Source: Mesostigma viride (taxonomy: Eukaryota; Streptophyta; Mesostigmatophyceae; Mesostigmatales; Mesostigmataceae). From it: a DNA stretch of 64,000 nt. Both the position numbers and the translations under genes were made by a program. Below are positions 1 to 13,608 of this stretch, piece after piece. Where the stretch lies: the NCBI GenBank assembly GCA_009746045.1, contig RPFO01000667.1, positions 5,664,219 through 5,728,218 on the forward strand, read 5' to 3'. Below the pieces are notes generated by a model, which saw only the letters and a program-made list of their open reading frames with translations, was not told the DNA's origin and ran no database searches. Numbering within the stretch: the stretch's first letter is position 1; each line of letters begins with the position of its first letter.

Positions 1-58
1 ATCAAAATGCACCTATCTACAAATATCTTCGCCCCGGAATCCCCCCCCCCCCGGGGCA

Positions 59-12000: not shown

Positions 12001-13608
12001 GGCGACGCGCGAGCAGCTGGAGGACCGGATCTGCATGACGCTGGGGGGGCGTGCGGCCGAGGAGGTGTTGCTGGGCAAGATATCCACCGGCGCTCAGAAT
12101 GATCTGGAGAAGGTCACGAAGCTGGCATACGCGCAGGTAAGGGGGGAAAGAGGGGAGGGGGGATGCGCAGGTACAGAAGGGGGGAGGGGGGGAAGCAGGT
12201 TTTTAAGTTTCCTTGTTGAAATTGTTTTTTTTTTTTTTTTTTAATCGGGTTTGATAAATGTTTCAGGGAAGGAGGGGTGCTTGTGCCGGTGGGGAGCTTG
12301 TGCCGGTAAGAAATTGGGGTTGTGTGGGTAGGGTATGCGCAGGTGAAGAAGGGGGGTTGTATGGCCTATAAAATGTGGATAGAAATGCCCGCGTACTGTT
12401 TGCGTGTTGTTTGTGTTTGTGGCTGTGGCTGTGTTGCATGCGTATGGCGGTGACCGACATACTCGTGCCGCGTACGTGGGCTAGTCTTACCTGTGGTTGA
12501 TCTTGTTGGCTTGGCCATGGCTTGACCAGGAGGTGGGAGAGAGGTTGGTGTAATGTTGTGGGTAGGTAATTAATATTGTGCTCACGACTACGCCCCCTCG
12601 TGTCGCTTGCTACGCCACTAGGCTCACTGGGCTGCTCACTAGGCTGCTCAATAGGCTGCTCACTGGGCTGCTCACCAGGCTGCTCACTAGGGTGGCTCAC
12701 TACTGCGACCGCTTGTATCATGTGCGGCACCCACAAGTTTAACTGTATTTGTTTCTAGCACTGCGCACAGGCTCAAACCCTCAGGCCTAAACAGGTGTAA
12801 CCCACAAACACACACTCTCTTGCGTCACTGCTGGGCTCCATCCACTTCTCGCAAGCACTTCCTCTTGTTTATTGCTTCCTCTTGTGCTGCTCGTGTCATC
12901 CACGTATGGGGGCCATCCCTCCTCGCTGCATGGCATTTCATCATGCCCGTGCGCTGCTTGCTAGCAACCCCTCCTGCTGGCTTGACAACCCCTCCTGCTG
13001 GCATCCCCTCCTGCTGGCTTGCCATCCCCTCCCGCTGGCATCCGTCCCCTCATACTCCACAGGTGGCGGTCTACGGTTTCAGCGAGAAGGTCGGCCTCCT
13101 CTCCTTTCCCCCCGGGTCGAACGGGTCGGAATTCCAGAAGCCCTACTCGGACGACACCGCGCAGCTCATCGACGCCGAGGTGCGCTCCATGGTGGACGCC
13201 GCGTACAAGAAGACGCTCGCCCTCGTGCGCCAGCACAAGGCCTCGATCGAGAAGCTCGCGCAGACGCTGCTCCTCAAGGAAGTCGTCCAGCAGGACGACA
13301 TGATCGCCATCATGGGCGCGCGGCCGTACACGTCGGCCGAGATGAGCAATTACGACAAGTACCGCATGGGATTCGGCGTGGGGAGCGCTGCGCCCGCGCC
13401 CGATGGGGCCGAGTCGGCCAAGCCCGAGGGGGCCGAGGTCAAGCCGGAGTCAGGAGACGGATCAACAGAGGGGAGTGGCGGCGCAGGGTCGGGCGAGGGA
13501 AAGGAAGAGGGCAAGCTGGAGAAGGATCTGGGGGCGACAGCGGGGGATGATGGTCAGGGGGGCAAGCCGGCGGGCCATCCGACGGGCCGCTTCCCAGTGG
13601 CATCGTGA
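59..13608 (+). CDS. Mitochondrial m-AAA protease (FtsH3/FtsH10/AFG3-like), 5' partial, 8 exons
   Basis: ATP-dependent zinc metalloprotease of the inner mitochondrial membrane, facing the matrix, that degrades and processes membrane proteins. Exons seen: <59-244, 2094-2512, 3161-3649, 4729-4912, 8002-8196, 9562-9672, 11765-12136, 13063-13608. All phases match, giving about 833 residues, close to plant FtsH3/10 length. N-terminal region: one membrane segment in exon 1 ([12 protein letters not shown]), the intermembrane-space domain in exons 2-3 (KYFLNIG, then [11 protein letters not shown]) and a second membrane segment ([15 protein letters not shown]). AAA module: Walker A GAPGTGKT at 3573-3596, Walker B IIFVDE at 4817-4834, and the second region of homology [20 protein letters not shown] in exon 5. 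Protease: HEAGH at 11873-11887 and the third-ligand stretch STGAQNDLE. The C-terminal tail after FGVG is low-complexity (Glu/Gly/Ala). Intron 1 has a GC donor; the rest are GT-AG. The true start lies before the window, or upstream of the poly-C at 43-54. The mitochondrial rather than plastid assignment rests on sequence resemblance recalled from the family. Confidence 0.95.
331..371 (+). repeat. Echo of the exon 1 end plus GC donor
   Basis: Near copy of 210-250, the last ~35 nt of m-AAA exon 1 plus its CAG|GCAAGT donor, 121 bp downstream with only a few substitutions. It would serve as an alternative donor. A third, much decayed copy lies at about 940-975 (gagtgtgacgtgcagtagg). Confidence 0.85.
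430..772 (+). mobile_element. Chimeric retroelement 3'-end remnant in intron 1
   Basis: Bases about 430-590 match the reverse complement of 56760-56930. Bases about 590-735 match the reverse complement of 48180-48330 and of 14620-14760. The end is a CACGTGA...TCTACGTGATAATTAATTAAT hairpin and target-like tract. Two dispersed repeat families are therefore joined in one copy. No coding potential survives. Confidence 0.7.
826..890 (-). repeat. Fragment of dispersed hairpin repeat (CTCC-CAAC-GGAG type)
   Basis: Contains aacataactccgttgggag followed by tatatgtagcacatatccctgagaagggg, almost identical to 20962-21008 and related to 20495-20530, 48525-48560, 56488-56530 and (inverted) 23385-23435. 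Confidence 0.75.
1690..1925. repeat. 20-bp tandem repeat (gttgtcagcttcagctcatg) in intron 1
   Basis: About eleven units. Early units carry the variant tcgttg and later ones tcatgg; a few lack internal bases. The open frames across it are repeat artefacts. Confidence 0.9.
1978..2019 (+). repeat. Echo of the exon 2 acceptor edge
   Basis: caggaccccaagtggctgct and the following gggcgcgggcgtcgt copy the 5' edge of exon 2 (2091-2132), acceptor CAG included, 114 bp upstream of the true site. The true exon is chosen because its frame ([16 protein letters not shown]) continues with the protease family. Confidence 0.85.
2556..3080 (+). repeat. Ladder of six echoes of the exon 3 acceptor edge in intron 2
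   Basis: Copies or partial copies of cgtggagatgtttgagcgc (true exon 3 edge at 3161) occur at about 2556, 2585, 2675, 2775, 2878 and 3042. The last extends through gcaagctggagga and is almost perfect. Spacing is mostly 90-165 bp. A poly-C tract of about 25 nt lies at 2989-3013. Confidence 0.85.
3840..4100 (+). repeat. Echoes of the exon 3 donor edge in intron 3
   Basis: The true edge at 3636-3655 reads ttcctggccatcag|gtgagc. Related copies are gatggctatcag|gtgtgt near 3846, ccctggcaatcag|gtaaag near 3970 and ctcctggtcatcag near 4081. The rest of intron 3 (to 4728) shows no other recognisable feature. Confidence 0.7.
5006..5350 (+). repeat. Echoes of the exon 4 donor edge in intron 4
   Basis: The true edge cgctcaaccag|gtgggt ends at 4912/4913. 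Copies occur at about 5006 (gcgctcaaccaggtgggtgg), 5246 (ccactcaaccaggtgggtgg) and 5336 (cgcttgaccaggtgggtgg). Each copy keeps an intact GT donor. Confidence 0.85.
5072..5142. repeat. (TTAC)n microsatellite
   Basis: About seventeen TTAC units in intron 4, with one slipped unit near 5092. Confidence 0.95.
5473..7441. repeat. Duplicated composite element A-B / A-X-B in intron 4
   Basis: Segment A (5473-5594) recurs almost unchanged at 6054-6177. Segment B (about 5633-6051) recurs at about 7022-7440. In the first unit A and B are ~40 bp apart; in the second ~845 bp (X, 6178-7021) lie between them. The second unit starts where the first ends (caaagaaccccgat then tcatgtcccacg). No transposase motif is visible. 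X is GC-rich, with short frames but no recognised protein. Confidence 0.8.
7619..7805. repeat. Imperfect tandem repeat (gtgacaagtactagtgaaagt)
   Basis: About eight diverged units of 18-26 bp in intron 4, shortly before exon 5 of the m-AAA gene. Confidence 0.75.
8284..8590 (+). repeat. Echo ladder of the exon 5 donor edge in intron 5
   Basis: The true edge reads gcgctggacaag|gtgagtag at 8185-8204. Copies follow at 8290 (gtgctggacaaggtgagtag, extending 40 bp further), 8397 (gcgctgaacatggtgagtac), 8494 (gcgctggacaaggtgagtag) and 8567 (gcgttggataaggtgatta). Units are 70-110 bp apart, and each carries a plausible GT donor. Confidence 0.9.
9008..9502 (+). repeat. Echo ladder of the exon 6 acceptor edge in intron 5
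   Basis: The true edge is gacag|gaggtggaatactactc at 9557-9579. The copy at 9473-9501 is identical through cagcgac. Weaker copies are at 9228 (tcaggaggtggaatatgtat) and 9010 (gcaggaggtgtagtacttgc). The 9473 copy preserves a full AG acceptor only ~84 bp before the real one. Confidence 0.9.
9735..10110 (+). repeat. Echoes of the exon 6 donor edge in intron 6
   Basis: The true edge is ggacaag|gtgggcac at 9666-9680. Related strings such as gggcaaggtgggtacttgg, gaagcaaggtgggtacc and gggcaaggtgggctaa recur about eight times, spaced 40-80 bp. The local sequence is a degenerate minisatellite built on the exon border. Confidence 0.75.
10618..10695. repeat. (CATCCAGT)n octamer repeat
   Basis: About nine units, one with the variant cccgtcat. 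It leads directly into the tetranucleotide tract that follows. Confidence 0.9.
10696..11506. repeat. Compound tetranucleotide array (GTTC)n-(GTCC)n-(GTTC)n-(ATTC)n
   Basis: GTTC fills about 10696-11153, GTCC about 11167-11291, GTTC about 11296-11318 and ATTC about 11319-11505. Adjacent blocks differ by one base of the unit. Long open frames on both strands (FVRS, NERT, SFIH repeats) are artefacts. A run of about 22 G follows at 11540-11561, next to a hairpin-like cgcctccatggggagagtca at 11510-11529. All of this lies inside intron 6 of the m-AAA gene. Confidence 0.97.
12150..12350 (+). repeat. Echoes of the exon 7 donor edge in intron 7
   Basis: The true edge atacgcgcag|gtaagg ends at 12136. 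Copies are gatgcgcaggtacagaagg near 12161 and gtatgcgcaggtgaagaagg near 12334. Intron 7 also has a T18 run at 12224-12241 and, at 12605-12690, a short repeat based on aggctgctcactgggctgct. Confidence 0.75.

Follow-up and report, generated by a model that had tools for sequence, protein, structure and literature searches.

Why should the introns of a gene hold copies of the edges of its own exons? The question is raised by a gene for an m-AAA (FtsH/AFG3-type) protease of the streptophyte Mesostigma viride, which opens the window studied here, a stretch of 64,000 nucleotides from assembly GCA_009746045.1 (contig RPFO01000667.1, positions 5,664,219 to 5,728,218). An earlier note on this DNA had claimed that at almost every exon border of the gene a short piece of exon, together with its splice site, recurs within the adjacent intron, and we call such copies echoes. 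Our reconstruction of the gene, with eight exons in view (Table 1), is consistent in phase and has GT-AG borders, the sole exception being a GC donor after exon 1. The spliced protein is identical at 800/800 amino acids to a protein model, P0001 (jgi/Mesvir1/24772), which backs all seven junctions and shows no trace of any echo; P0001 begins at a methionine within exon 1, the start of which may lie further 5'. GC content is 66% in the exons and 52% in the introns. As given in the passages of the genome paper covered here, the assembly of strain NIES-296, from which the window comes, amounts to 441.8 Mb, is repeat-rich and was made from long reads; its introns average 1141.87 bp, and repeats make up 30.1% of intron space (PMC6947507). 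Border copies go unmentioned in those passages, and the string 'splic' is absent from the main text.

Exon edges recur in the adjacent introns

We scored a border as carrying an echo only if the 40 nt of exon at its edge, free of any intron sequence, matched the adjacent intron with a score of at least 13. Nine of the 14 m-AAA borders pass this strict test, namely the ends of exons 1, 3, 4 and 5 and the starts of exons 2, 3, 4, 5 and 6, three of them weakly (scores 13.4-13.8), while the ends of exons 2, 6 and 7 and the starts of exons 7 and 8 fail. Most of the borders listed in the earlier note are thereby upheld, and the starts of exons 4 and 5 are additions to its list; the ends of exons 6 and 7, though listed, are not significant with the exon-only probe, and copies occur there only with the splice site and the start of the intron (the exon 6 end has more such short copies at offsets 237, 290 and 339). 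Under an earlier scoring the same nine borders reached 14 to 32 against their own introns, and probes from the exon interiors scored at most 13 in 111 comparisons with the flanking introns. Two results of that scoring speak against individual borders: the end of exon 3 matched intron 1 better (15) than its own intron (14) and is thus a weak case, and the start of exon 8 reached 16 on the reverse strand of intron 6. Under the later scoring, which had a low-complexity filter, every reverse-strand match stayed below 13 (one reached 12). The aligned copies bring splice sites with them, CAG/GTGGGT three times in intron 4 and AAG/GTGAGT in intron 5, and the echo of exon 1 carries even its rare GC donor. 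The decay described for the ladders, as we term the rows of several copies, is not a steady one with distance: in intron 4, copies at 114, 346 and 434 nt are 68%, 73% and 73% identical.

The claim had been framed around one gene, but the border test finds echoes in several gene families. Genes were drawn from Pfam searches (HSP70, CCT, kinesin and adaptin) and from FtsH paralogues, and introns were solved between neighbouring matches in 299,618 letters from 70 loci, covering part of the listed Pfam matches (20, 8 and 4 regions). From 96 neighbouring anchor pairs (57, 35 and 4), 24 gave no splice solution (13, 10 and 1) and 11 were excluded because their profile gap was too wide (10, 1 and 0), which left 61 solved. 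Scores below 5 (L061, L062, L023), weak models (L042:4764, L055:2118), a repetitive exon with a doubtful border (L047:4161) and four duplicate or haplotig copies were then removed, and the remaining 51 introns, with three FtsH introns solved by eye (L002, L004, L008) and the seven of m-AAA, form the final set of 61. A 55-intron set served for the left-out-base test, the donor identity profile and the flush-repeat analysis described below. Splice-site weights were hand-set and untrained, and single borders outside m-AAA may be a few nucleotides off because they were solved from Pfam anchors.

Across the 61 introns an echo is present at 27/122 borders (donor 16/61, acceptor 11/61) and at least one is found in 23 introns; without m-AAA the count is 18/108 (donor 12/54, acceptor 6/54). 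Three of six introns that were added late, and were not picked for echoes, have one. The copies are in direct orientation, as had been stated, the reverse strand giving 0/122; they track each border separately, with 27/122 matches to a border's own intron set against 9/4288 pairings with the introns of other genes; and they are repeated at donor and acceptor borders alike. Other places in the exon, the comparison proposed in the earlier note as its refutation, gave 0/119 when probes were moved 60 nt further inward, and so left the claim intact. Exon-edge echoes are therefore genuine, above chance and present beyond m-AAA, which is itself an extreme case (9/14 vs 18/108 borders, Fisher p=0.0004).

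Anatomy and origin of the echoes

Probes of 100 nt show how closely the copies are tied to the border: 26/27 matches begin 0-3 nt from it and reach 18-43 nt into the exon. With 20-nt probes set 0, 5, 10, 15, 20 and 25 nt inward the matches number 19, 17, 12, 7, 2 and 1, and between 30 and 95 nt inward there are none (n 119-122 at each position). When the six bases nearest the border are omitted from the probe, 21/25 matches still extend to within 8 nt of it, the reverse-strand control giving 1 match per 110 probes; one match (L054:563) lies entirely away from the border and looks like chance. Best echoes of donors all fall in the donor half of the intron (16/16) and those of acceptors mostly in the acceptor half (9/11), at median offsets of 104 and 172 nt, respectively, with 12/16 donor and 5/11 acceptor echoes 50-130 nt away.

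Exon and intron parts repeat jointly in young arrays, with units of 76 bp in L051 (original and three copies), 70 bp in L060 (third unit partial), 107 bp at the m-AAA exon 5 end and 97 bp in L063. A Tandem Repeats Finder array (8176-8416) straddles the exon 5 end border. Over 14 donor matches the mean identity of positions -6 to -1 is 0.64-0.86 and that of +1 to +6 is 0.71-0.79, whereas past +8 most values lie at 0.43-0.64, a profile that fits expectation if exon and splice site are frozen; beyond the donor, likeness fades in old copies and is kept in young ones. The copies are thus direct, nearby and contiguous with the exon-intron junction, as in a tandem duplication crossing that boundary.

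We favour, with a probability of roughly 0.65, serial tandem duplication across splice junctions, tolerated since splicing discards the extra exon edge. Segments of ~50-120 bp spanning a junction would become tandemly duplicated. On the donor side the outer donor would stay, and a copy of exon edge and donor would land inside the intron; on the acceptor side the inner acceptor would stay in place. The extra copy would presumably be spliced out, leaving the mRNA unchanged and the event tolerated, and further events at the same border, probably with slippage among existing copies, would build a ladder. As exon and splice site are conserved, old copies would still be recognisable against them, while intron-only duplicates would lose their match about twice as fast. 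The limit of ~45 nt of exon would then reflect selection, since a longer exon copy would turn the second donor or acceptor into a true rival. Orientation, nearness and contiguity are all accounted for by tandem duplication across the junction. Raw counts overstate any border preference, because a conserved exon makes duplications at the border easier to see than internal ones.

Several observations weigh against serial duplication tolerated through splicing. A model of uniform breakpoints, simple in that it equates offset with unit length and treats echoes as independent, predicts an exon part longer than 45 nt in 11.5 of the 17 echoes at offsets of 50-130 nt, and 0/17 have one. Repeats made of intron sequence only and lying flush with a donor are more numerous than a uniform spread would give (6 vs 2.8, 6 vs 2.1, 5 vs 1.3 and 4 vs 0.8 at four thresholds with totals of 33, 25, 17 and 10; Poisson p 0.07, 0.02, 0.01 and 0.01, the thresholds being nested rather than independent and the events few), while those flush with acceptors show no excess (4 vs 2.8, 2 vs 2.1, 1 vs 1.3 and 0 vs 0.8). 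The lengthening of introns claimed earlier is implied by each insertion, but in the sample of 61 introns an echo does not go with greater length (medians 688 vs 663, p=0.68). Nor is the donor excess that splice-site competition predicts significant (12/54 vs 6/54, p=0.20, without m-AAA).

The exon reach limit and the donor-flush excess fit at least as well a process directed at the borders themselves, in which exon-intron borders are hotspots with breakpoints starting no more than ~45 nt inside the exon. Candidate causes are transcription- or splicing-coupled breaks, the ends of R-loops and the GC step from exon to intron, of which the 66% vs 52% of m-AAA would be an instance. If such a process operates, the borders would be mutational hotspots at which units of ~100 bp are added by a mechanism linked to transcription or splicing, and introns would be continually rebuilt from their own edges. 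The narrow exon reach at 26/27 borders, the empty inward probes and a donor-flush excess of 2-5 times the uniform expectation speak for it. We nevertheless hold it to be doubtful, as the flush events are few, with p 0.07 at the laxest threshold and nothing extra at acceptors; one echo (L060:336), whose match begins 14 nt from the border, reaches 58 nt into the exon; and repeats are numerous in the interior of introns as well (242 pairs, median offset 98 nt). Under the simple model the reach limit is strong, and it may come from selection against long exon copies or from a mechanism linked to the border.

Turnover and the less likely explanations

One pair of kinesin paralogues (L060 and L067, exon 164/177; the solver gave no borders for L067, which were set by aligning it to L060) bears on the turnover of ladders. 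At one donor both carry a ladder with a 70-bp repeat, two full units and a partial third, whose units 0 and 1 agree at 70/70 and 66/70 positions within a gene and at 61/70 and 59/70 between genes. Nothing in the 545 nt of the corresponding L067 intron matches an echo that L060 has at another donor (best score 8.4). With one ladder common and one echo lacking its counterpart, ladders are gained or lost over the time scale of paralogue divergence, on which their units are probably also homogenised.

This turnover bears on the proposal, to us an improbable one, that the extra splice sites are decoys kept by selection, to regulate splicing or make poison transcripts. Decoy sites had been claimed and do exist: with the hand-set matrix 12/16 of the best donor echoes equal or exceed the real donor in score, two fall below it and two have lost the site. 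Yet the donor positions of the echoes are kept no better than the adjoining exon part (0.71-0.79 vs 0.64-0.86), the acceptor AG is retained in just 6/11 matches, and one of the two donor ladders compared is missing from the other paralogue.

An origin from a dispersed element, be it a repeat, a transposon or an introner family, is very improbable, and so is an artefact of assembly. The genome is repeat-rich and long-read assembled, according to the passages covered (PMC6947507), but matches are far commoner in a border's own intron (27/122 vs 9/4288 cross-gene), most copies are separated by many substitutions, and one ladder is common to two paralogues on different scaffolds. A further point against is the 99.95% identity, through the echo, of L063 and L064 on different contigs, which could be one region assembled twice. 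The earlier tie to intron birth by tandem duplication of AG/GT-containing exon DNA (the Rogers model) can hardly be sustained for these introns: the duplication step and AG/GT-like junctions are in common, but the model expects the upstream exon end to be copied at the intron 3' end, whereas 16/16 best donor echoes adjoin the copied border in the donor half (where two of the 11 acceptor echoes are found too), and the m-AAA intron at amino acid ~357, one of the seven in this gene, has a position common to FtsH paralogues.

Features of the window and known parallels

The features of the m-AAA gene are collected in Table 1.

Table 1. The m-AAA gene and the copies of its exon edges, in window positions.
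Feature	Position	Strand	Remark
m-AAA (FtsH/AFG3-type) protease gene	80..13608	+	eight exons in view, stop in last
Exons 1-4	80-244, 2094-2512, 3161-3649, 4729-4912	+	
Exons 5-8	8002-8196, 9562-9672, 11765-12136, 13063-13608	+	stop in exon 8
Echo of exon 1 end and GC donor (GCAAGTGGGC)	322..374	+	120 nt downstream; 91% over 53 nt
Weak, older copy of exon 1 end	~935-964	+	offset 732
Echo of exon 2 start and CAG acceptor	1953..2013	+	112-119 nt upstream
Ladder, six echoes of exon 3 start	2555..3074	+	aligned copies; exon-nearest copy without AG
Exon 3 start echoes	2555-2570, 2584-2599, 2665-2692, 2736-2789, 2879-2894, 2984-3074	+	
Echoes of exon 3 end	3848-3875, 4075-4094 (weak)	+	exon-only score 13.4
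Echo of exon 4 start and CAG	4498..4554	+	212 nt upstream; 70%
Ladder, three echoes of exon 4 end	4979-5027, 5226-5276, 5311-5353	+	CAG/GTGGGT intact in each
Echo of exon 5 start	7788..7824	+	207 nt upstream; 73%; AG lost
Ladder, exon 5 end echoes	8283-8363, 8393-8416, 8486-8517	+	8283-8363: 107-bp unit, 91%
Weaker exon 5 end echoes	8641-8719, 8774-8810, 8854-8881	+	
Ladder, five echoes of exon 6 start	9010-9056, 9063-9116, 9177-9253, 9273-9342, 9458-9500	+	
Copies spanning exon 6 end, donor and start of intron	9742-9788, 9790-9865	+	exon part short
Copy of intron 7 start and 4 nt of exon 7 end	12302..12356	+	one mismatch

Intron 4 also contains a repeat element (5471-7440) in the order A-B-A-C-B, its 128-nt A copies identical and its B copies identical over at least 300 nt, as if a ~1.4-kb element stood very recently duplicated beside an internally deleted copy of itself. 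A second match to the exon 5 start (6224-6295, 64%) falls within this element and was taken as chance. A tetranucleotide array of ~0.8 kb (10694-11507) sits inside intron 6. Elsewhere in the window are a pentanucleotide array of ~2.3 kb (~42930-45300) and frames resembling by eye a non-LTR (long terminal repeat) retroelement, with endonuclease and reverse transcriptase parts (15200-18450). On the reverse strand at 29878-30000 a coding stretch of 19 nt, GGAATGGGTGGATGCGGTC, reappears with two differences ~104 nt downstream; it is possibly another exon-edge echo, in what by eye would be a gene of nonribosomal-peptide-synthetase type. Among the sampled loci, the FtsH paralogue L004 (C1646) has a coding exon with a tandem duplication of ~22 bp, seen by eye, at which its protein match splits; this may be a pseudogene, an error or a real change, and its donor border also bears an echo. 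Two CCT gene copies (L043 on C1641, L044 on C887), probably haplotypes or a recent duplication, are 96-97% identical where aligned, and one intron measures 4087 nt in one copy and 912 nt in the other.

Intronic minisatellites are head-to-tail arrays that undergo slippage and are homogenised within a locus. The L051 and L060 arrays resemble them and differ in being anchored on splice junctions and in including coding sequence; head-to-tail units with within-locus homogenisation are found in the young ladders only (8176-8416, L051, L060/L067). Introner elements are a single family copied between genes. They too place repeated sequence in introns genome-wide, but the Mesostigma copies are private to each border, and the same sequence in many introns is not what the cross-gene comparison found (9/4288).

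Further parallels come from tandem duplication itself, well known as a source of introns in the parts of the literature covered (PMC3443670). That model likewise duplicates a splice-like junction and has it tolerated via splicing; as described there, however, it makes a new intron from exonic DNA, whereas in Mesostigma existing introns gain copies of their own borders. A boundary-crossing tandem duplication is on record for the potato RdRp gene and, in the sections covered, is similar in crossing the intron-exon boundary and copying splice signals with part of an exon, but was one event that made a new intron and inserted exon sequence (PMC4974935). In Mesostigma a border, be it a donor or an acceptor, can have several copies, which stay within existing introns, and to judge from P0001, which matches throughout without an echo, the m-AAA gene would have gained neither a new intron nor an altered mRNA. 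The single step, a tandem duplication, is of a known kind. A literature search, with most subscription papers outside its coverage, brought up no account of ladders that track borders, with serial copies private to each border in several genes of the same genome.

The growth and turnover of introns are usually attributed to transposons. A conserved exon edge provides a fixed reference against which old insertions stay recognisable and can be roughly dated, and a non-transposon route of intron change therefore becomes measurable. The ladders are in addition a natural splicing experiment, with donors of equal strength in a row of which the m-AAA gene model uses the outermost only, and can therefore test how the spliceosome chooses the edge of an exon.

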